Shown: positions 1 to 16,262 of the stretch, in pieces
Position numbering within the stretch: position 1 is the stretch's first letter
How the letters are laid out: every line of letters starts with the position of its first letter
DNA from: a virus
DNA length: 21,800 nt
Virus record (IMG/VR): IMGVR_UViG_3300030451_004181
Span: 1-21,800 of that record
Direction: 5' to 3' (one strand)
The notes under the pieces: model-generated
Told to the model about the DNA's origin: nothing
The model's database searches: none
What the model saw: only the letters and a program-made list of their open reading frames with translations
Made by a program: the position numbers and the translations under genes

Positions 1-1915
1 CAAGAATCGGCGGTTTCTGAACATACCCAACATTAGCAAATGCTGAAAGTCTGTCATCAAGATTGTATCTACCACCACCTTTAACTTGAAAAGTAGTAAT
101 GTTATCAGCCTCAACAACTTCTTTGTCTACAGAGAAGTGGTCTTGATAAGTATACCCAATGGTAGAGATACCACCCATACCATATAGATTTATCTTTTCA
201 GTATCGTATTGACCTTGTACAAAAGCACCAAACCAATCTACTGTGGTGTTGTTGTGATAAGCAATAATATCACCTAATCCAACTTTCTTACCATCAGCAA
301 AATTGTCGTCAGCGTAGTCTACATAGTAGTCTCCACCAAGTAAGTCACGAACTTCTCTAGCATGTTCTATACCAGCAGTTCTCCAATCAATACCAAACTG
401 AACTTCTATTTCATCATTCACATCATAGTTTAATTTAGAAATCAAACCATAGGTGTTCTGTCTATTGATTGAGTTACGTAAAATACCTGTGGAACGATTT
501 TCATCTACAGACCAAGCAGAATCAATATTGTTAGAATTCTGTTCAATCTCAGAATTCCAATCCCATGTCCAAGGTGAAGATGCATACCATCGTTCCCCTT
601 CAACTGCAGGACTTCTACTTACACTTCCGTAAGTTCCTGTTCCACCACCTGAACCACCACTCCAATAAAGAACTGAACTTAATCTCATCTGTTCATTAAT
701 TTCGTAAAAATGGTTTAGGTTTACTAATGGTTTATGAAAGAAGTTTTCTCTTTCATTCAACAGATTTGGACTATACCTATCAGTTGTTCTTGCACCATAC
801 ATATACCAATATTGTTGGCCTTTGTATTGTGGGTCAACTGGTGCCCAATTCTGATTGAAGAATCTACCAGCCTCAGTTTCAAACTTCTCACCTTCAGAGA
901 AAGCAGTTTCATCGTATCCATCGATGTCACCAGCTAACTCTTGAGAGTAAGTTGCGATATTCTGTTTGTATAGATTCTGACCATGTCTTTGTGGTGCTCC
1001 AATAGCATACAATTCAAATCTCTGTTTTTCACTCAGAGCATAAGAACCACCAAAATAATAAGCCCAAGCGTCTGTCCATGTACCATCGATGATTCCATCA
1101 CCAGTTTTACGAACAATAGTTCCACTAAGAGCTAACTTATCATTAATTAGTCCTGAATTGTAGTTCATGGTAGTTTTTAGAAAACCACCACTACCAGCTT
1201 CTTGTTTCACCTTTCCACCTCTTTCAAAAGATGCAGGGTCGGTTATGATGTTCATTGTTCCACCAATCGATGGTGTAGCTAAGTTTACCGCACTTAGTCC
1301 TCTTTGTACCTGAATAGAAGAAGTTGCATCTCCTACTCCGTCCCAATTAGACCAGTAAACCCATCCGTTTTCCATGTCATTTTGTGGAACACCATTAATC
1401 ATAACTGCAACATTTCGTTGGTTAAACCCACGAATGTTTATACGGGCATCACCCGCACCTCCACCTTGACCAGTAGCGTATACACTTGGTGTCGTATTTA
1501 GAATCAACGGAATATCTTGGGAACCAAGTCTTATTTCCATTTCTTCTTTACTAACATTAGTGTAAGCAACAGGAGTGGTTTCAGACGCACGAGATGCTAA
1601 TACCTCAACGTCTGTTAATGTGAGTGCGTCAATTGTCAATTCAAAATCAACATTCACATTGTCTTCTCCAATCACAACGGATTGTGTTGAAGATTTATAA
1701 CCTATGAAAGATACAATTACATTGTATTCACCTGGTAAAACATCTACCAAATATGAACCATCTTTATCTGAGACAGCACCTAAATCAGTACCGACTACAA
1801 TGACGTTTGCTCCTTCAAGTGGTTTTGAGCTTGCATCAGTTACTGTTCCAACTATGGATTGTGCAACCAACCCACTAATCATGAGAACTGATACAAGTAG
1901 ATTACGATATTTCAT
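1..1915 (-). CDS. TonB-dependent outer-membrane receptor (3' end outside window)
   Basis: The frame is open from the ATG at 1915 to the window edge, giving 638 residues with no stop. The start is chosen because AGGAG lies 6 bases upstream of this ATG; the ATG at 1921 would sit directly on it. Residues 1-20 look like a signal peptide (MKYRNLLVSVLMISGLVAQS). Residues about 21-95 form a carboxypeptidase-regulatory-like beta domain (IVGTVTDASSKPLEGANVIV, later DKDGSYLVDVLPGEYNV). A plug domain follows, with INIRGFNQRNVAVMINGVPQ and GGTMNIITD, then an aromatic-rich barrel containing GAPQRHGQN. This is the Bacteroidota/Marinimicrobia style of receptor, which imports a ligand across the outer membrane using TonB energy. 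The ligand cannot be read from sequence. The gene lies 80 bases downstream of the class II ribonucleotide reductase on the same strand. A host-type receptor in a phage operon is unusual, and a prophage-host boundary at about 1920-1990 is the main alternative. Confidence 0.9.
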   Translation of the reverse strand, partial: MKYRNLLVSVLMISGLVAQSIVGTVTDASSKPLEGANVIVVGTDLGAVSDKDGSYLVDVLPGEYNVIVSFIGYKSSTQSVVIGEDNVNVDFELTIDALTLTDVEVLASRASETTPVAYTNVSKEEMEIRLGSQDIPLILNTTPSVYATGQGGGAGDARINIRGFNQRNVAVMINGVPQNDMENGWVYWSNWDGVGDATSSIQVQRGLSAVNLATPSIGGTMNIITDPASFERGGKVKQEAGSGGFLKTTMNYNSGLINDKLALSGTIVRKTGDGIIDGTWTDAWAYYFGGSYALSEKQRFELYAIGAPQRHGQNLYKQNIATYSQELAGDIDGYDETAFSEGEKFETEAGRFFNQNWAPVDPQYKGQQYWYMYGARTTDRYSPNLLNERENFFHKPLVNLNHFYEINEQMRLSSVLYWSGGSGGGTGTYGSVSRSPAVEGERWYASSPWTWDWNSEIEQNSNNIDSAWSVDENRSTGILRNSINRQNTYGLISKLNYDVNDEIEVQFGIDWRTAGIEHAREVRDLLGGDYYVDYADDNFADGKKVGLGDIIAYHNNTTVDWFGAFVQGQYDTEKINLYGMGGISTIGYTYQDHFSVDKEVVEADNITTFQVKGGGRYNLDDRLSAFANVGYVQKPPIL

Positions 1916-1941
1916 AATCATCTCCTACTTTGTTCATTAAT

Positions 1942-1976
1942 AGACACATTTTTCTACAGGTGTGTCTTCTGCCTGT
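1942..1976 (-). promoter_or_regulatory. H-type RNA pseudoknot in the leader of the TonB receptor gene
   Basis: Read on the minus strand, ACAGG (1976-1972) pairs with CCTGT (1960-1956). AGACACA (1967-1961), in the loop of that stem, pairs with TGTGTCT (1948-1942). Stem 1 is 5 bp, loop 1 is CAGA, there is no base between the strands at the junction, loop 3 is AGAAAAA, and stem 2 is 7 bp. Short stacked stems with an A-rich third loop are the classic H-type arrangement used by small riboswitches and phage translational operators. The element lies after the reductase stop and 15 bases before the ribosome binding site of the receptor gene. Pairing is seen directly; function is inferred. Confidence 0.55.
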
Positions 1977-1995
1977 CCGCTTTTGTATGTGAAAT

Positions 1996-4008
1996 TTAGT
2001 TCGCATATTCTTGGTCATCGTTATCACCTGTCAACGATGGCACTTCACAAGAATCATTATTACAAAACTTATCTATATCCGCTTCTTCATTTTTAATAAC
2101 ACCAAACGATAGTTTACCAAGTTTTTTAACTTGTTTATTGTACTCTTTTTCATCAATAGCTTCATAAGGCATTTGTGGATAAGCTCCATAGTCATGTCTT
2201 GGTAACAGACTAATACCTTTTAGATGATATTGATAATAGTTTAAAGCTGGTTCAATTTGTTCGGATTCTTTTTTAGGGTCAAAAGTCACCGTACAACTTA
2301 CTTGGTTATCTGCCCAATGTCGTTGCATAAATGCAGCCAAACTAAATTGTTCCCAAATTGAAAGTTCTCCTGCAGTCCTAATACCCTCTCCGACATCTAC
2401 AGGAACTTCTACAACCATCGTAGTGTCCTCTGAACCAAATGCTGGTTCTATTTTATAACCTGCCTTTTTCATAGGTTCCAACAATTCTGAATGTTTAGAT
2501 ACCCTAATTCTTCTAATATAAAATCTACTTTCGGGATAATGTAAACCTGGAGTAGCACCAGCCAATAGTGAAACGGTGCCAGATGGTTTAACTGAAGTAG
2601 TTTTAATTGACTTTGGTACGGCAAACCAATCAGAATATGTTGCATCCCATTTTTGAATGACATCATATCCATCATTTAACCACTCCTTAAGTACATCGAT
2701 TCCTCTGTGAGTAATAAATTGAGCAACCCCACTTACAGAACAACCGATTCTTCGGTTTCTTAACATAACTCTATTGGTGTCTGACCAATGAGTTCTACCT
2801 AATGTAACTGTTTTTGCATATAAATATGCATATTTTAGTGTACGAGCATAATCTTCAAATGAATCATGGTTATCAGGAAAGGTCTCTACTAAACAACACA
2901 ATTCATATGATTCTAACGTTTGTTCCAAACATGGATTACCACCCATTGCTCTGTGGTCTTTGTCGTCTCCACCATTTTTCATACGAGAGTAGGTTCTCAT
3001 ATTATCCAACCAAGCTAAACCTGGTTCACCATTGTCTACAATTCTTTTTGATACTTCGGTGTAATCCATACCAAGTTCTGCAAATATACTATTATTACTT
3101 GTCCAACCATATTGGTCACGATGAGGATTAACTTTATAATTCTTTAAATCTAAATATTCTTCTGAATGTGGGTCACCAAATACAATCTCAGCAGTTCTTC
3201 TAACATTACCCGCGACTACACACTTTCCTATGAGATTCATAATGTCCACGATTGTGGTAACTGAAATTGGTTCACCACTATTCTTTTCCAATACCTTTCT
3301 TATTTCTTCATGTACTTCCAACAATGGTTCATGTCCACTTGATACTCCACCAAAACCATGTATGGGTTCACCTGCTGGTCTTATCTTTGTGTAGTTAAAT
3401 TCGATTGGAGCTTGTCCATGAAAATAACTTTCTAATAATAACTTTAGAGATTCGACCCAACCCTCACGAGTATCTGGTATCTCAAATACTTGTTCGTCTC
3501 TGTCTTTTTCAACTCCTTTAACTATTATTTCTCCTGCACCTTTTGTATCAAATCCAACACCAACTCCTAACATTGATGCATCCATCAAGAAACAAAATGG
3601 TTTTGCATAATCTTCTTTAAGTGTTTTTGTTGATACAAATGCACAATTGTTTAGGGCGGCATATAATCCCTTTTCTTCTGTGATTGGTGTTCCCATAGCC
3701 CACAGACCGCGACCAGGAGGCAAGAACTTCATTGTGAAAATCCGCTCATACATATCTTGAGCTGACGCTTGAGCTTGCCACGCGTTCCACCCTAATTGGT
3801 GTGATTCAATCCATTTCTTTTGCATAGAGTAAGTTCCCTCTACAACCCTTTGAACCGTTTCCCACCATCTCTCGTTTTTTCCGTCTTCTTTAATTCTTGA
3901 ATAGGTTCTCATGTAAACCAATTCACCTAATCCATTAAAACCAAAAGGAGCTTTTTTCCTTTTATACTTTGATATAAAATTATCTGATAACTTAAATTTC
4001 TGTTCCAT
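1996..4008 (-). CDS. nrdJ: Adenosylcobalamin-dependent class II ribonucleotide reductase (monomeric RTPR type)
   Basis: This enzyme reduces ribonucleotides to deoxyribonucleotides in the cytoplasm using a B12-derived thiyl radical, supplying precursors for phage replication. It has 670 residues, slightly shorter than the roughly 740 of Lactobacillus RTPR. The catalytic set is intact: Cys122 (NNCAF), the NPCLE loop with Asn358, Cys360 and Glu362, and Cys371 eleven residues after the thiyl cysteine, as in the family. A KPSGTVSLLAGATPGLHYP block follows. The C-terminal CNNDSC pair (Cys649, Cys654) keeps the CxxxxC spacing of the RTPR re-reducing cysteines, which favours this type over the larger dimeric NrdJ. 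No separate small subunit or activase is visible, as expected for class II. The start has an AAGG upstream. Between this gene and the helicase (4009-4080) is a 72-base AT-rich gap with a TATAAT-like stretch, a weak promoter candidate. Confidence 0.93.
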   Translation of the reverse strand: MEQKFKLSDNFISKYKRKKAPFGFNGLGELVYMRTYSRIKEDGKNERWWETVQRVVEGTYSMQKKWIESHQLGWNAWQAQASAQDMYERIFTMKFLPPGRGLWAMGTPITEEKGLYAALNNCAFVSTKTLKEDYAKPFCFLMDASMLGVGVGFDTKGAGEIIVKGVEKDRDEQVFEIPDTREGWVESLKLLLESYFHGQAPIEFNYTKIRPAGEPIHGFGGVSSGHEPLLEVHEEIRKVLEKNSGEPISVTTIVDIMNLIGKCVVAGNVRRTAEIVFGDPHSEEYLDLKNYKVNPHRDQYGWTSNNSIFAELGMDYTEVSKRIVDNGEPGLAWLDNMRTYSRMKNGGDDKDHRAMGGNPCLEQTLESYELCCLVETFPDNHDSFEDYARTLKYAYLYAKTVTLGRTHWSDTNRVMLRNRRIGCSVSGVAQFITHRGIDVLKEWLNDGYDVIQKWDATYSDWFAVPKSIKTTSVKPSGTVSLLAGATPGLHYPESRFYIRRIRVSKHSELLEPMKKAGYKIEPAFGSEDTTMVVEVPVDVGEGIRTAGELSIWEQFSLAAFMQRHWADNQVSCTVTFDPKKESEQIEPALNYYQYHLKGISLLPRHDYGAYPQMPYEAIDEKEYNKQVKKLGKLSFGVIKNEEADIDKFCNNDSCEVPSLTGDNDDQEYAN

Positions 4009-4080
4009 ATACGACTTACCTTATTTTTATTTCGTCTTCATTAGTGTGACCTTATATAACTATTATATATATGATAATCT

Positions 4081-5454
4081 TTACTCAAGTCCTTCAACTT
4101 TTTTACTATAATCTGTGAATTTTTTTCCAGCCATTTGTCGTAAGTATTCTTCAGAATTATTCATCTTTCCTTGTACTTCCATTCCACTTACAGTACTACT
4201 TTCAAATATATCCACCTTTCCTATATTGGTGTTCATTGTTACAGGATAAGTAATACCATCAACTCCAAATCTATTTTTAATGACATGAGCTCTTGCAGTA
4301 TTTGCAACTTTATCCTCTACTTTTCTACTAACCGACATTACGAAATCTGCAGTCATAACCTTTGAATAAGACTCCGCAACTTTTGATGCATCTATAACTT
4401 CTTCCTCTAACGATGAACGATTTGCCTGTGATGCAGTCCATACTGGTAAATCAAATTCACCAGCCATACCTCTTAAGTCCTCGTAAATATTACCTAACTG
4501 ATGTCTAACCTCTCTTGCTCCACCAACATCCCTAAGTATATCTGCATAATCTACAAGAACTAAATCTGGTTTTATACTTTGTATATCTAATTGTTTAAGA
4601 TGTGATGCCAAAGTAGGAACTGTTGCAGACCTTGTAGGATAATATTTTATCACCAACTTACCTGGTAATCTCTCAATAACTTTTTTAACATCATCTTGAT
4701 GATACTTTATGTTTGCAGTAGTGACTCCACTAAAAACAGTATCATATCTTAATCCGACATAAGTTTGATTCAACTCTAAGGTATAATGTACAACTGTTAA
4801 ACCAGCTTTGACAGCTGCAGAACCCAATACTTGTAACATCCAAGTCTTACCAATACCAGCTGGAGCAACAATAACACCAAGTTCACCTTTACCTAAACCA
4901 CCATCCATAACCTCGTTTATTACATCCCATGATGTAGAAACCACATCCCTAACAGATTCGGTTAATCTTTCTTCCAAACCCTCTACATAATCATGACCAA
5001 TATCACGACTACTACCCGCCTTCATAGCCTCATCTATTACTTTTTTTATACCATCATAATTTTGTCCTTCAAGTAATTCCACCGACTCCATGATAGCAGA
5101 CTTGATAACTTGATTCCTACAAAATTCAAGTGTCTTATTTTTTACATAGTCCAAATCTTCTGATTCGATTTGTCTCCAAGCTTCTTTTAAGTTCTTTACT
5201 ACAGAGACTTTTAATACATCACTATCTATTTTATCTATCTTAACTTTAAGTACGTCAAGAGTAGGTTTAGTTTTGTACTCAGTAAAATAACCCATTATCA
5301 TTTTGATAAGTAATTTGTTACCATCTGAATCAAAGTAACTTGGATTAATTATATCGAATATTGTTTGTAGAAATACCTTATCTGATAACAAACAAGATAT
5401 TATTTTGATTTGAAAATTTGGCCCATACGAAGTTAAAGTATCATTATTCGCCAT
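4081..5454 (-). CDS. Replicative DNA helicase, DnaB / T4 gp41-like
   Basis: This is probably the hexameric 5'-3' replicative helicase that unwinds the fork. It has 457 residues, close to T4 gp41. The N-terminal 150 residues are helical, as in the DnaB N-terminal domain. The RecA-type core has a Walker A motif APAGIGKT (197-204), a Walker B stretch VLVDYADIL (299-307) and the DnaB-family H3-like WTASQANRSS (339-348). The KNRFGVDG segment near the end suits the arginine-finger region. The gene overlaps the upstream small basic gene by 11 bases and belongs to the uvsX-exonuclease-helicase cluster. A KaiC/RadA-type ATPase is less likely because of the length and replication context. No primase gene is visible in the window. 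Confidence 0.88.
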   Translation of the reverse strand: MANNDTLTSYGPNFQIKIISCLLSDKVFLQTIFDIINPSYFDSDGNKLLIKMIMGYFTEYKTKPTLDVLKVKIDKIDSDVLKVSVVKNLKEAWRQIESEDLDYVKNKTLEFCRNQVIKSAIMESVELLEGQNYDGIKKVIDEAMKAGSSRDIGHDYVEGLEERLTESVRDVVSTSWDVINEVMDGGLGKGELGVIVAPAGIGKTWMLQVLGSAAVKAGLTVVHYTLELNQTYVGLRYDTVFSGVTTANIKYHQDDVKKVIERLPGKLVIKYYPTRSATVPTLASHLKQLDIQSIKPDLVLVDYADILRDVGGAREVRHQLGNIYEDLRGMAGEFDLPVWTASQANRSSLEEEVIDASKVAESYSKVMTADFVMSVSRKVEDKVANTARAHVIKNRFGVDGITYPVTMNTNIGKVDIFESSTVSGMEVQGKMNNSEEYLRQMAGKKFTDYSKKVEGLE

Positions 5455-5623
5455 ATAGGTCTTTTTCCTTTTCTTTTAGTATCATTGCAGCTTTTTTATT
5501 TCTATAACGTTCACGTGCTTTTTTCTTTATCTTTTCTGAGTTACGCCAGTAGTGTTCCATTTGCCATCTACGTTGAGCTTTTTGTTTCTCATCCTTAGTT
5601 AAATATATTCTACGGCGTCCCAT
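5444..5623 (-). CDS. Small basic protein (59 aa), possible nucleic-acid binder
   Basis: I do not recognise a specific function. The start at 5623 (MGRRRIYLTKDEK) is preferred over the upstream in-frame start at 5677, because it falls 2 bases after the exonuclease stop instead of overlapping 52 bases into that gene. The protein is very rich in Lys and Arg and probably one or two helices, with alternating aromatic and basic residues (WQMEHYWRNSEKIKKKARER). Similar basic helical stretches occur N-terminal to phage HNH endonucleases, but no HNH motif is present. It sits between the exonuclease and the helicase and overlaps the latter by 11 bases, so a replication-accessory role is possible but unproven. 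Confidence 0.65.
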   Translation of the reverse strand: MGRRRIYLTKDEKQKAQRRWQMEHYWRNSEKIKKKARERYRNKKAAMILKEKEKDLYGE

Positions 5624-5625
5624 AT

Positions 5626-6681
5626 TCAATCTTTTTTTGCGTATTTGTTTAATTGATTGAAAGTAGACAATAACCAACTATCAAGATTAGGTAAAGTATT
5701 AAACATTCTGTCTTCTAAAAACATTTGTTGAAATTTTATCTTAGCCAAATTAGGAATCTTTTCGTCAACCTTACTCATTATTTTTAATTTATCTGAATTA
5801 GGTATATCAACATCATTGAGTTGCATCAATCTTCTATTGAGAAATAAAGTTTCTTTTGATTCAATAATTTTTCCATAAAAGTTTTTGTTTTCTTTTTCTT
5901 TGGCAGTTGCGACTTTCATTACATCTTCTAAGGTATATTGATTTCCATCTGTTAGCCATGGAAAGTTTTTCAACAAAGTTTTTTTACCTATCCCTTTTAC
6001 ACCACTAATGTTATCAGACCTATCACCCTCAAACATTCTTAATAATAAATAATTATTTGGTCTTATTCCATATTCTTCTTCAAAGTTTTCAACATCATAT
6101 CTTTTTTTCTTTGTGGGTGACCAGACTTTAATTCTATCATCAACCAACTGAAGAAAATCTTTATCAGTAGACATAATATCTATTTTAGAATCTTTCAGAA
6201 CTTGTTTAGCAATGTAACCTATTGTATCATCAGCCTCTATACCATCGATTGATAAAATTGTTAAAGGTAAATGTTCAAGATATTCTATACACCTACTAAA
6301 CTGCATCATCATATTTTTACGTTCATCCTCGATGTTGTCAAAACTATGAACTCTATTTAGACGTGTACGTGTTTTTCTATTCTCTTTATAGTTTGAATAA
6401 TAAGAGCGACGGCGGTTTGACCCACCCTTACCATCAAACACGATGATAGTACGAGTGGGATTTAGAGTTTTTATACTATAACCAATTGACCTAAGAAAGC
6501 CAACTATTCCACCAACGTGAATTCCATCCTCGTTAGTAGTTGGCATAACGCTAAATACTCTAATAAAAGTATTCAGGCCATCTATAATCAACACTTTATC
6601 GTTTTTTGTTCCGTCCTCTAAATTACCGCCGTTGTTCTTAATACTTTCAAGAATTGAAATGTATCTTTTATTGTTCTTCAT
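5626..6681 (-). CDS. 5'-3' exonuclease / flap nuclease, T4 RNase H-like
   Basis: This is a FEN/PIN-superfamily nuclease, expected to remove RNA primers and 5' flaps on the lagging strand. The family's metal ligands can be followed in order: Asp34 (IIDGLNTF), Asp83 (VFDGKGG) followed by an Arg/Tyr-rich segment (NRRRSYYSNYKENRK), Glu149, Asp151 and Asp152 (GIEADDTIGY), Asp173 and Asp175 (STDKDF), and Asp220 and Asp223 (EGDRSDN). A helix-3-turn-helix GVKGIGKKT lies at 227-235. The length of 351 residues resembles T4 RNase H (about 305) with a longer N-terminus. The start at 6681 lies inside the uvsX end (14-base overlap) and has no clear ribosome binding site, which suggests translational coupling. 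Confidence 0.9.
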   Translation of the reverse strand: MKNNKRYISILESIKNNGGNLEDGTKNDKVLIIDGLNTFIRVFSVMPTTNEDGIHVGGIVGFLRSIGYSIKTLNPTRTIIVFDGKGGSNRRRSYYSNYKENRKTRTRLNRVHSFDNIEDERKNMMMQFSRCIEYLEHLPLTILSIDGIEADDTIGYIAKQVLKDSKIDIMSTDKDFLQLVDDRIKVWSPTKKKRYDVENFEEEYGIRPNNYLLLRMFEGDRSDNISGVKGIGKKTLLKNFPWLTDGNQYTLEDVMKVATAKEKENKNFYGKIIESKETLFLNRRLMQLNDVDIPNSDKLKIMSKVDEKIPNLAKIKFQQMFLEDRMFNTLPNLDSWLLSTFNQLNKYAKKD

Positions 6682-7762
6682 CAGGTGTTTCTTCGATTGC
6701 TATATCATCAATACCGAAGTTAGGGTCATACTTTAGAATCGAAGCTTCACAAACTTTTTCATAACAATAGTCATACACTTCTGGTCTATCTTTCAATAAA
6801 GCATCCCAATCTTTTGATTGAAATTTAATCTCATCCCCATCAAAATCTAAAGTATACCAAGACCCACCTTGTTTAACAATCTTATTATCTTTAAGTACTT
6901 GTAATAAACTACCATTGTTATCAAGGCCTGTTTCGAAAAATAAATTAAAGTCAGCACTTCTCATTGGTGGCCCGAGTCTATTCTTAACGACTTGAGCTCT
7001 CATTTTCATACCAACCGTATCATTACCTTTTTTAATTTGTCCAACATTCTTTAATCTAATTCTTGTTGAAGCATGAAATGGTAATGCCTTACCACCACTT
7101 GTTGTCCAAGGGTCACCAAACATTACACCTAATTTTTGTCTTAACTGATTAGTAAATACTAAACATATTTTTTGTCTACCAATCATTTGAGTAATCTTTC
7201 TCATAGCCTTTGATATGATTATGGCCTTAGAAGTAGCCCAACCATCTTTATCGAAGTCACCAGCTAACTCAGTACGAGTAGTTGCAGCTGCCAAACTATC
7301 AACTAAAATAGTAACGAGTCTATCTTTATCTGATTCTCTAATCTTAGTTACGAGTTCTTCGATAGCCTCAAAGATATCTTCTACTGTTTCAAGATGTAGA
7401 TACAACATACTTCCAACATCAACTCCAATAGCACCTAAAAAGTCTGTACTAACTGAAGTCTCAGTATCTATGTATACTGCAACACCACCTTTCTTTTGGG
7501 TCTCTGCTAATATATGGGAACCCAATAAAGATTTACCACTTGATTCTAATCCATTTAACTCTGTTATTCTACCAACAGCAATACCACCATTTGGTCTATT
7601 AGATATAGCCAAATCCAAAGTGGTAGAACCTGTAGAAACAAAATCAGTTACATCTGTTGGTGTGGTATCTGAACCATCCAAAAAGTATGCAACTTTTGAA
7701 TCTTTAAACTTCTTATTGATATCAGAAGCCAAAACATTCGCAAGGTCATCTCTTACTGACAT
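6668..7762 (-). CDS. uvsX: UvsX/RecA-like recombinase
   Basis: This strand-exchange ATPase acts in recombination-dependent replication and repair. In 364 residues, the Walker A motif GLESSGKS is at 71-78, the Walker B stretch VTILVDSL at 150-157, and the DNA-binding L2 region with TNQLRQ and TSGGKALPFHAS at about 205-233. The residues before Walker A (STTLDLAISN, GGIAVGRITELNG) follow the RecA/UvsX pattern. The C-terminus is acidic, which is common in this family. The ribosome binding site GGAG lies 5 bases before the ATG. The gene is directly downstream of the SSB gene, separated by a stem-forming element at 7782-7851, and overlaps the exonuclease. The UvsX name is preferred over bacterial RecA because of the phage-type neighbours. 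Confidence 0.92.
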   Translation of the reverse strand: MSVRDDLANVLASDINKKFKDSKVAYFLDGSDTTPTDVTDFVSTGSTTLDLAISNRPNGGIAVGRITELNGLESSGKSLLGSHILAETQKKGGVAVYIDTETSVSTDFLGAIGVDVGSMLYLHLETVEDIFEAIEELVTKIRESDKDRLVTILVDSLAAATTRTELAGDFDKDGWATSKAIIISKAMRKITQMIGRQKICLVFTNQLRQKLGVMFGDPWTTSGGKALPFHASTRIRLKNVGQIKKGNDTVGMKMRAQVVKNRLGPPMRSADFNLFFETGLDNNGSLLQVLKDNKIVKQGGSWYTLDFDGDEIKFQSKDWDALLKDRPEVYDYCYEKVCEASILKYDPNFGIDDIAIEETPDEEQ

Positions 7763-7861: not shown

Positions 7862-8617
7862 TTACTTACTGAATAGCTCGTCAAAGGCATCTGTAGTATT
7901 AGATACAGGAGTATCAGCTACTTTAGATGTAGATACTGCCTCTTCCACGTCACTATCATCCTCATCATCACTTGGTGTTAACCAAGCCTGTAAAGCCTCT
8001 GTCAACTCATCATAAGATAATTCTTGATAAATCTCATTGATGTCTTTCTGATTACTCAAAAAGTTTTCTAACTGAATCTTATCATCAGATAGAGCAGTTT
8101 GATTAGGTTTTACTCGGATAGTAGTTTTTGGAAAAGAAGCTCCAACTTCCTCTGCTGTTTTGAATTCGACTACAACGTCACGTCCACTAACAGGATCGGA
8201 TATATCACCATAATCTGGATCGGCGATGATAGATAGAAGTTCTTGGTAAACTGTTTTACCAAATCCCCAATACTTTACACCCTCGTTTTCTTCACCACGA
8301 ACAATCACAGGTGCGAAAGTTCTCATTTTGGCTTCTAACTTTTTACCGAGTCTCCAATCCTCACGATTACCACTTGACTTGAGTTTGTTTGCAAATTCCT
8401 CAATAGGGTCTGGTCTACCGAAAGAGATAGGTGATAAATAAGATTTCCCGCCTAAATCATAATGAAAAAACAATTCTATAAATGGAATGTCTGTATTTGA
8501 TTTATTTGGTACTATTCTGATTTGAGTTTTACCAGGTTGTGGCTTCCAAAGATTGGAAGTTCTGGTATTTGTGGTTTGTAACTGATTTAATCGCTTTCTA
8601 ATTGCATTAATATCCAT
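7862..8617 (-). CDS. Single-stranded-DNA-binding protein, T4 gp32-like
   Basis: This protein coats single-stranded DNA during replication and recombination. It has 251 residues with the gp32-type order. A short N-terminal region (MDINAIRKRLNQLQ) may mediate cooperative binding. It is followed by an OB-like core beginning LWKPQPGKTQIRIVPNK and containing PFIELFFHYDLGGKSYLSP and KYWGFGKTVYQELL. The C-terminal tail is acidic (SDDEDDSDVEEA) and ends FDELFSK, a type of tail that usually recruits partner replication proteins. AAGGA lies 8 bases before the ATG. Its position just upstream of uvsX matches the recombination-replication module. The zinc cysteines of T4 gp32 are not seen, as in many marine T4-like relatives. 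Confidence 0.85.
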   Translation of the reverse strand: MDINAIRKRLNQLQTTNTRTSNLWKPQPGKTQIRIVPNKSNTDIPFIELFFHYDLGGKSYLSPISFGRPDPIEEFANKLKSSGNREDWRLGKKLEAKMRTFAPVIVRGEENEGVKYWGFGKTVYQELLSIIADPDYGDISDPVSGRDVVVEFKTAEEVGASFPKTTIRVKPNQTALSDDKIQLENFLSNQKDINEIYQELSYDELTEALQAWLTPSDDEDDSDVEEAVSTSKVADTPVSNTTDAFDELFSK

Positions 8618-8710: not shown

Positions 8711-8878
8711 TTAATTTTTCTTTTTTAAAATATTTTTTGGAACTGTCCAAATTCTTCCCATGCTATCTTTGACTCTTATGTGATTTTTTGCTTGTACTTC
8801 AGAGTGTTCTTTTACAACTTCATTTTGATATAATACACCATCAGGAGTCATGTGATTCTTTAAAACTAAATACTTCAA
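8711..8878 (-). CDS. Small hypothetical protein (55 aa, TTG start)
   Basis: The frame encodes KYLVLKNHMTPDGVLYQNEV after a TTG start and ends WTVPKNILKKKN. AAAGG precedes the TTG by 6 bases, and the gene begins 18 bases after the SelW-like gene, so it fits the operon. An alternative ATG start would be 27 bases further in. The content looks like a compact beta-rich domain with a basic C-terminus. I do not recognise its function. Confidence 0.6.
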   Translation of the reverse strand: MKYLVLKNHMTPDGVLYQNEVVKEHSEVQAKNHIRVKDSMGRIWTVPKNILKKKN

Positions 8879-8896: not shown

Positions 8897-9148
8897 CTAT
8901 GTTACCGATTCTATTCCTTCAATTAAGTCTTCAACTTCATTTTCATTTGGGAACCTACCCAATTCTTTTTTACTAAAAAGTTTATGTCTTGCATCTCTGT
9001 ATTCATTGTACATATCTACTTCAAATACACCACCTGTACCTTTTATCAATTCAGCCTTTACACCAAATTTTTTTTCTATTGATTCTCTCAAACTGAGAGC
9101 TTGGTTTAGATATCCTCAAGAAGTACAATATTGAATTGTTATATTCAT
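8897..9148 (-). CDS. Putative selenoprotein, SelW/Rdx family, in-frame TGA read as selenocysteine
   Basis: Read from the ATG at 9148, the frame gives MNITIQYCTS, then TGA at 9118-9116, then GYLNQALSLRESIEKKFGVK and the Rdx hallmarks ELIKGTGGVFEV and LFSKKELGRFP. SelW proteins carry CxxC or CxxU near the N-terminus before exactly this body; here the TGA occupies the U of CxxU. The total is 83 residues, normal for SelW. The ATG overlaps the thermonuclease stop by one base (TAATG) and has AGAGGA upstream (9160-9155), so translation clearly begins before the TGA. Other genes here use TGA as stop (for example the exonuclease), so the code is not globally reassigned. SelW proteins have a thioredoxin-like fold and act in thiol redox reactions. 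Selenocysteine insertion would rely on host SelA-D and tRNA-Sec, none of which is seen here. A nonsense mutation or sequencing error is the alternative. Confidence 0.82.
9085..9099 (-). promoter_or_regulatory. Bacterial SECIS-like hairpin
   Basis: CTCTCA (9099-9094), loop GTT (9093-9091) and TGAGAG (9090-9085) form a perfect 6-bp stem inside the SelW-like reading frame. The distance from the TGA to the apical loop is 22 bases and the loop starts with G. Both fit the known bacterial SECIS pattern (loop roughly 16-37 bases after UGA, with a G among the first two loop bases), which recruits SelB. Confidence 0.6.
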
Positions 9149-9594
9149 TAACTTTCCTCTGCTGGTTTATCAACTAAGTCTTCTTTCTTAGCTGCTTTTT
9201 CTTCTTTGATTTCTGCTATGAACTTCTTTTTCTTACCACCATCGTATTCGTAAGCATGTCCTTCATTGATTAGAATTTGATTTACACTTTCTAAACCATT
9301 TTCTGTTTCAACAAAAACTTCACCTAACACTCTACCGAATTTACCTGTTCCATGTGAAACAATCTTAAAAGTACCAGACTCCAACAACTCTTTATTACGA
9401 GCTTTTGCAGCTAGTCCTTTTTTCTTTTCTTCTAAATCACGAGTTCTACTTTCCCAAGTATCGATACCCATATATCTAATTCTTTTTTTTATTTTTAAAT
9501 CGAAACCTAAATCAATATAAGCATCAATTGTGTCTCCATCTAAAACTTTAACTAATGTGCCATTATATTCAAATGACGCTGGTTTTTTAGCCAT
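9148..9594 (-). CDS. Thermonuclease-like nuclease (SNase family)
   Basis: This 148-residue staphylococcal-nuclease-like protein should cleave DNA or RNA phosphodiester bonds with calcium. The start at 9594 (MAKKPASF) is chosen because AGGAG lies 7 bases before it; the further upstream start would run back into the preceding gene. The catalytic set is complete: Asp19/Asp21 (DGDT), Arg40 and Glu48 in RYMGIDTWE with the exact family spacing, and Arg88 (GKFGRVLGEV). No signal peptide is seen, unlike secreted relatives, so it probably acts in the cell, perhaps in host DNA degradation or nucleotide scavenging. The C-terminus is rich in Lys and Glu. It is translationally coupled to the SelW-like gene. 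Confidence 0.88.
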   Translation of the reverse strand: MAKKPASFEYNGTLVKVLDGDTIDAYIDLGFDLKIKKRIRYMGIDTWESRTRDLEEKKKGLAAKARNKELLESGTFKIVSHGTGKFGRVLGEVFVETENGLESVNQILINEGHAYEYDGGKKKKFIAEIKEEKAAKKEDLVDKPAEES

Positions 9595-15388: not shown

Positions 15389-15423
15389 TAAAGCTACGAA
15401 TAAAAGCCTATACGGGTCAAGCA
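15389..15423 (-). promoter_or_regulatory. Promoter-like repeat copy 4 (overlaps the GH6 stop codon)
   Basis: On the minus strand: TGCTTGACC with TTGACC as the -35-like box (15420-15415), an 18-base spacer starting CGTATAGGC, and TAGCTT (15396-15391). The GH6 stop TGA is inside the -35 box. It points at the structured segment 15262-15368. Confidence 0.7.
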
Positions 15424-16262
15424 TTTTTTTTATTATTTATCAATTCAAGGGCTTTTATGTGGTCAAATCTACCTGCAATCTTACCTTTATATTTACGTCC
15501 GTCTGATTCACCAGGTGGTTTTACCCATAAAAAGGCATCACATAATTTATCTTTTGTGTTTGTTGTTGGAAATTCTCCGATTCTTCTACCAGGTGGATTA
15601 CACCATTCTTCATCCAATCCACCATTTCCATTTCGCGATGTATCTATAACAAATGGTTTGTTACTGATTAATCTACTTATCCGTTTACCATATGTCATAC
15701 AATAATCAGTTGAATAGTAATTGGATATGTTTATACTGAATCCTCTACATTTAGAGACACCAACAGATTTTAAGTGTTTAGAAATAATCTTAGGTTTGTG
15801 CCAATTAGGATGTCCTGCATCAAGATACAAGAGAGCATTAGAATTATTGGTTATATAATCCACTGCATATGACATCAAATCTATTCTTTGAAATTTATCT
15901 TTGTGGTGGAATTGACTTAAATGTGGAATTGAATCTGGTTCGTATATTACAATTGGAGCATAATCTCCTATACCTTCAGTAAACTTTTTTACGAACTTTC
16001 TGTATGCCTTAAATGTTCGTTCACCACCTTTTGAATATTGTCCAATATCCCTAAATGGTATCGAATATAAAACTAATACAGGCAAATAGGGTTCAGCCCT
16101 TTGTAATAATCTACGAACTTTTTTGTCAACATTCTTCATGGTCTTTCTACCAGAACCAAACCAAAATGATGTTGGTTGTTCATTTATTATTTTAAGGTCG
16201 GGATATTTCTCTGTAACTTTTTTTCTAATTGGCCAATCTGGCACAAAAAATGGATAATCCAT
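15417..16262 (-). CDS. Glycoside hydrolase family 6 (endoglucanase/cellobiohydrolase fold)
   Basis: GH6 enzymes hydrolyse beta-1,4-glucan with inversion. This 281-residue protein is essentially one catalytic domain, with the family blocks in order: VLYSIPFRDIG with Asp72 (Asp175 of Trichoderma Cel6A), IYEPDSIPHL with Asp110 (catalytic acid, Asp221), LYLDAGHPNW, FSINISNY, PFVIDTSRNGNG, WCNPPGRRIG, and DAFLWVKPPGESDG with Asp242 (Asp401). All catalytic aspartates are kept, so it should be active. The WCNPPGR and TSRNGNG blocks are of bacterial endoglucanase style. It has no signal peptide, carbohydrate-binding module or membrane anchor, unlike secreted cellulases, so release by lysis or packaging in the virion is likely. 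It follows the 140-residue gene by 7 bases in a phage operon, and its stop overlaps promoter copy 4. Its substrate may be a host glucan or capsule instead of plant cellulose. Confidence 0.92.
   Translation of the reverse strand: MDYPFFVPDWPIRKKVTEKYPDLKIINEQPTSFWFGSGRKTMKNVDKKVRRLLQRAEPYLPVLVLYSIPFRDIGQYSKGGERTFKAYRKFVKKFTEGIGDYAPIVIYEPDSIPHLSQFHHKDKFQRIDLMSYAVDYITNNSNALLYLDAGHPNWHKPKIISKHLKSVGVSKCRGFSINISNYYSTDYCMTYGKRISRLISNKPFVIDTSRNGNGGLDEEWCNPPGRRIGEFPTTNTKDKLCDAFLWVKPPGESDGRKYKGKIAGRFDHIKALELINNKKNA

Follow-up and report, generated by a model that had tools for sequence, protein, structure and literature searches.

The window, by which we mean the whole 21,800-nucleotide stretch of DNA analysed (positions 1 to 21,800 of IMG/VR record IMGVR_UViG_3300030451_004181), comes from a T4-like phage, probably a marine one. 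It contains a gene of the Rdx/SelW family whose only internal in-frame stop, a TGA at codon 11, very probably specifies selenocysteine (Sec) in a functional phage-encoded SelW. Conservation of this codon, covariation in a SECIS hairpin and conservation of silent sites together exclude chance as an explanation. Selenoproteins have been described in all three domains of life. A search of open-access full text returned no described phage selenoprotein, and in a 2021 marine survey the families examined had no or very few viral sequences except for class II ribonucleotide reductase (RNR), plastocyanin and Cu-Zn superoxide dismutase (PMC9402790). A virus-borne class of selenoproteins carried through a whole phage clade appears to be undescribed.

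The SelW-family gene and its in-frame TGA

The gene and its start region comprise the following features.

8897 to 9148, minus strand: predicted Rdx/SelW-family selenoprotein gene, 83 aa followed by TAG, with Sec (TGA) at codon 11; from translation with TGA as U, profile matches and a structure model
9116 to 9118, minus strand: in-frame TGA at the U of CxxU (C8-T-S-U11), shared by viral and bacterial relatives
9155 to 9160, minus strand: Shine-Dalgarno-like AGAGGA a few bases 5' of the SelW ATG, read directly from the sequence
9148 to 9594, minus strand: thermonuclease-like endonuclease (phrog_452, E 5e-35), its stop codon overlapping the SelW ATG (TAATG)

Read from 9148 to 8897 on the minus strand with TGA as U, the gene translates as MNITIQYCTSUGYLNQALSLRESIEKKFGVKAELIKGTGGVFEVDMYNEYRDARHKLFSKKELGRFPNENEVEDLIEGIESVT. 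The original prediction had the coordinates right and left the strand unstated. Its further claims about the gene also held when examined directly: the TAA of the upstream nuclease gene overlaps the SelW ATG, a Shine-Dalgarno-like AGAGGA precedes this ATG, and translation and profile matches agree on a normal Rdx/SelW frame in which TGA occupies the U of CxxU. The family search that it had proposed for the 83-residue product placed both Rdx/SelW profiles above their curated cut-offs, namely Pfam Rdx PF10262 (E 8e-18, 64.9 bits against a cut-off of 22.6, residues 2-77) and NCBIfam TIGR02174 CXXU_selWTH (50.8 bits against 34.2).

An AlphaFold2 model built from a 25-sequence alignment has a pLDDT of 91.5 and places CxxU after the first strand (residues 2-8, followed by a helix at 14-28) of a thioredoxin-like fold, as is characteristic of Rdx/SelW proteins. 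Among PDB entries, the SelW-related proteins of bacteria 2obk, 2oka, 2fa8, 2ojl, 3dex and 2p0g match best (E about 1e-5). Four of these, 2fa8, 2oka, 2obk and 2p0g, resemble the window model with TM scores of 0.68-0.78 at 20-29% identity. The PDB entries are structural-genomics structures from bacteria, whereas the window protein is phage-borne with predicted Sec at the second redox position.

Relatives were sought with peptide patterns from which codon 11 was left out. A first viral scan of this kind found five relatives, all with TGA and one of them a near-identical copy; a sixth viral relative, again with TGA, came from a second scan. Among GTDB species genomes searched in the same manner, the best 80 bacterial loci had TGA in 80 of 80 cases, and the closest member reached up to 51% identity to phage SelW. 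A degenerate pattern for I-E-Y-C-x-x-U-x-Y with TGA recovered an Rdx frame in 28 of 32 matching IMG/VR stretches, while the pattern matched to it with TGT (TGT being the Cys codon scanned, not TGC) returned three stretches and no Rdx frame. Altogether, SelW with TGA was found in about 30 viral contigs representing 21 to 22 distinct sequences. No SelW relative was found in 50,697 phage records, and at E 0.001 or better BFVD, a library of viral structures, gave no match. In the record L005, a second Rdx-like C-terminus fragment (6-113) lies at the contig end directly 5' of SelW, which suggests that this phage has Rdx genes in tandem.

If this TGA were a true stop, the gene would be a decayed pseudogene or would be expressed only as a short fragment, and mechanical ORF calling does yield just a TTG-started fragment of 64 aa (8897 to 9091), as had been predicted. 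However, the same TGA occurs in about 30 viral contigs with the frames on both sides intact, conservation within the protein is highest in the N-terminal strand with CxxU, and the SECIS hairpin described below covaries, which makes a true stop very improbable. The related phages found all keep TGA at codon 11, with no sense codon found there and no scattered stops seen in homologues; a sense codon unrelated to Cys and scattered stops had been named in the original prediction as contrary to it. Read error had been named as well. L001, a separate IMG/VR record, has the near-identical SelW copy with the same TGA amid neighbouring genes that are 100% identical to those of the window, which argues against a sequencing error.

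Some phages recode stop codons, so that TGA might be reassigned to tryptophan or another amino acid, or read by a suppressor tRNA, leaving codon 11 as something other than Sec. We consider this highly unlikely. TGA terminates four of the 19 other likely genes in the window (TAA 13, TAG two), so the code is standard, without genome-wide recoding, and no suppressor tRNA was found in the records scanned. Furthermore, the TGA falls at the Sec position of the family, and bacterial homologues share both the TGA and the SECIS hairpin.

Mutation from TGA to TGT is easy in these genomes, yet Sec is kept across the phage clade and no TGT variant was found, which points to selection retaining a costly amino acid. 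In small, fast-evolving genomes that retain selenium, the question of why its use pays off could be tested directly. A phage selenoprotein would couple the fitness of the phage to selenium and Sec decoding in its host, would restrict the host range to bacteria that decode Sec, and would mean that standard phage annotation misses such genes.

The hairpin downstream of the TGA

Bacterial SECIS elements have an accepted form, in which a small apical loop downstream of UGA has a G near its start. Such an element is present in the SelW gene.

9085 to 9099, minus strand: bacterial SECIS hairpin CUCUCA-GUU-UGAGAG, assigned from conserved position and loop, covariation and silent sites

The hairpin has 6 bp and a GUU apical loop that starts 22 nt after UGA, with G among its first two bases (for the bacterial form, compare the Figure 7 legend of PMC2398784). 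Nearly all phage and most bacterial sequences examined have a hairpin at this same position. Their loops vary (GUU, GGU, GUC, GUG, GGG) and so do their stems, with CUCUCA/UGAGAG, CCCUUA/UAAGGG, CUCUUA/UAAGAG and UCGUA/UACGA among the variants. In 21 phage sequences, 98.4% of cells were paired and 12 cells were compensatory, with both sides changed. The covariation score of these sequences was 0.360 versus 0.207 after shuffling, with none of 500 shuffles as high, and the signal was lost when the stem partner was slid out of register. Adding bacteria raised the score to 0.636 versus 0.271 for shuffled data, and RNAalifold recovered the same stem unprompted. Within the window's own subclade, silent sites of codons 17-25 were invariant in 8/9 columns versus 13/36 elsewhere (Fisher p 0.006). 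Folded as a single sequence, the SECIS region of the window was unremarkable (z -0.33), and an Rfam search of the region gave sub-threshold chance matches only, with no match to any bacterial SECIS family.

Phage neighbourhood, a predicted second selenoprotein and possible redox clients

SelW-like proteins form the most abundant marine selenoprotein family (PMC2398784), and their frequency in marine bacteria raises the possibility that the gene is bacterial and sits on contigs that were mis-binned or contaminated with host DNA. The genes downstream of SelW in the window bear on this possibility.

8711 to 8878, minus strand: small ORF of 55 aa between SelW and the single-strand DNA binding protein (SSB) gene
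7862 to 8617, minus strand: T4 gp32-like SSB (phrog_1192, E 3e-18)
6668 to 7762, minus strand: UvsX-like recombinase (phrog_97, E 3e-69)
5626 to 6681, minus strand: exonuclease (phrog_107, E 1e-39)
4081 to 5454, minus strand: DnaB-like replicative helicase (phrog_19, E 1e-73)
1996 to 4008, minus strand: class II (B12-dependent) RNR with the C-terminal Cys pair CNNDSC (RNR-II_ins_dom, E 5e-15)

The gp32-like SSB, UvsX and helicase are viral hallmark genes of T4-like phages, and this replication-gene setting is common to many relatives. In several relatives the gp32-like SSB is the next sizeable gene after SelW, in others SelW follows the thermonuclease-like endonuclease gene, and similar small ORFs lie 3' of SelW in L094 and G002. 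In another record, L102, SelW is close to a gp25-like baseplate gene. The phage SelW proteins also group together, forming one clade in 92% of bootstrap trees from 72 alignment columns, although the branch itself is weak (93/35). Nearest to this clade are four marine Alphaproteobacteria (98/83) and not Neomarinimicrobiota, a placement from a short alignment with weak resolution. One record, L093 (IMGVR_UViG_3300009104_001210, 216 kb), does lend something to the idea of contamination: at 737-5778 its Sec-SelW sits, as judged by eye, among cysteine desulfurase-, IscU/NifU-, SufT- and glutamine synthetase-like genes, of which the cysteine desulfurase- and glutamine synthetase-like neighbours are possibly cellular, and the contig is either a jumbo phage or a misclassified cellular contig. 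Against the replication and baseplate genes and the single clade, bacterial rather than phage DNA around the gene seems most improbable.

The phage-borne SelW shares with the bacterial SelW-like selenoproteins (PF10262) its family, the CxxU motif, the TGA codon and the position of the SECIS hairpin. It differs from them in adjoining replication or baseplate genes, in forming a clade of its own and in lying on records where no Sec machinery was found. Two carbohydrate-related observations were made in passing. The window includes a glycosyl hydrolase family 6 gene (15417-16262, minus strand; PF01341, E 2e-54), and about 30 kb of the T4-like record G024 (L130/L131, about 26-57 kb) is occupied by glycosyltransferase- and sugar-nucleotide-like genes, as judged by eye.

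A thioredoxin search of the phage records led to a frame of 379 aa in which TGA takes the first position of UGPC and which has AhpC/TSA, dockerin-like and secretion-tail domains; its Por_Secre_tail match scored 26.3 bits, just under the cut-off of 27. A UxxC pattern scan found this frame in eight viral contigs, L170 (G024), L172, L168, L174, L169, L173 (G021), L166 and L167, and the CxxC version of the same TlpA-like pattern found no viral contigs. A SECIS-like hairpin, CGGA-GGC-UCCG, whose loop starts 17 nt after UGA, is present in seven of these contigs. By these sequence features the frame represents a second predicted phage selenoprotein family, a putatively secreted UxxC protein of TlpA/AhpC-like type that has dockerin-like repeats and a T9SS-type C-terminal tail. 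Like the SECIS hairpin and the breadth of the phage clade, it goes beyond the original prediction. Both selenoprotein genes occur on one contig in G021, G024 and IMGVR_UViG_3300032360_000023. When all frames were searched for other conserved TGA cases, antisense shadow frames dominated the result; after filtering, one convincing extra family was left, the same TlpA-like UxxC protein.

Phage SelW is most likely a small cytosolic thiol/selenol oxidoreductase acting in phage replication, and its clients may be host proteins or the phage class II RNR. The C-terminal cysteine pair of class II RNR requires an external dithiol donor. An RNR related to that of the window is present in nine SelW phage records, and the pair is conserved in all eight records that retain this end of the protein. 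A clear CxxC thioredoxin was found only in G012 among the records scanned, the other thioredoxin matches being either the UxxC protein or thioredoxin-like proteins that lack CxxC. The co-occurrence of class II RNR, its cysteine pair and the rarity of CxxC thioredoxins make this enzyme a reasonable candidate client. T4 offers a comparison in NrdC, a phage thioredoxin and small thioredoxin-fold redox protein able to serve RNR; unlike phage SelW, NrdC belongs to another family, has CxxC and contains no selenium. Thioredoxin-like proteins with a signal-like N-terminus and no CxxC are encoded in three SelW phage records (L125, L126 and L127).

In one reading SelW is a true selenoprotein whose main task is general redox work, the repair or regulation of host or phage thiols, and the variety of SelW neighbours between phages (nuclease, SSB, baseplate) speaks for this. 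The replication-gene neighbourhood in many members leans instead to RNR, as does the scarcity of clear CxxC thioredoxins or glutaredoxins in most of the larger records. On balance we give general redox work a slight preference. A more ambitious reading has the T4-like clade keeping its own selenoproteome, a cytosolic SelW plus the secreted TlpA-like UxxC protein, decoded by host Sec machinery and with SelW as the dedicated selenol donor of RNR. We regard this as rather unlikely; if true, phage DNA synthesis would depend on the selenium supply of the host.

Decoding machinery and host

SelA, SelB, SelD and tRNA-Sec were each found in none of the phage records tested for them, these records being fragments. 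Weak RF01852 matches in phage records were below the gathering score, and wherever a check was possible they fell on genes for tRNA-Cys or tRNA-Gly. As far as such fragments show, decoding depends on the host. During infection, host SelA, SelC and SelD would make Sec-tRNA(Sec), and host SelB carrying it would recognise the hairpin whose loop starts 22 nt after UGA. Selenocysteine would then be inserted at codon 11, completing the CxxU active site in the thioredoxin-like fold. Sec insertion and activity as a thiol/selenol reductant are what the sequence leads us to expect of phage SelW, and both would link it to host selenium metabolism and redox state, as originally proposed.

Contact between phages and selenocysteine has been hinted at earlier by tRNA-Sec genes in Basilisk-like phages (PMC6145125) and in huge wastewater phages (PMC10747093), reports whose passages on these tRNA genes name no selenoprotein. 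In the present phages, selenoprotein genes are present and tRNA-Sec was not found.

The original prediction had called for Sec machinery in candidate hosts. In the phylum Neomarinimicrobiota, which may include the host of the window phage, SelA, SelB and SelD are present in five of five genomes and tRNA-Sec exceeds the gathering score in four of five. SelD of Neomarinimicrobiota itself has an in-frame TGA, and the closest single bacterial SelW homologue among the best 80 loci belongs to this phylum. A search for UvsX homologues in the genomes of Neomarinimicrobiota turned up one 49%-identical phage-like contig whose gene order is the same, and SelW was absent from the stretch of it examined; its presence in a Neomarinimicrobiota bin is no more than suggestive of such a host. 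From its T9SS-type tail, the second predicted selenoprotein points to a host in the FCB group. A predicted tmRNA gene in the 96-kb phage record G002 (L146, 14431-14840) has the tag EYDYSPMVASNQDQPTYAYAA, which could help to name the host of that phage.
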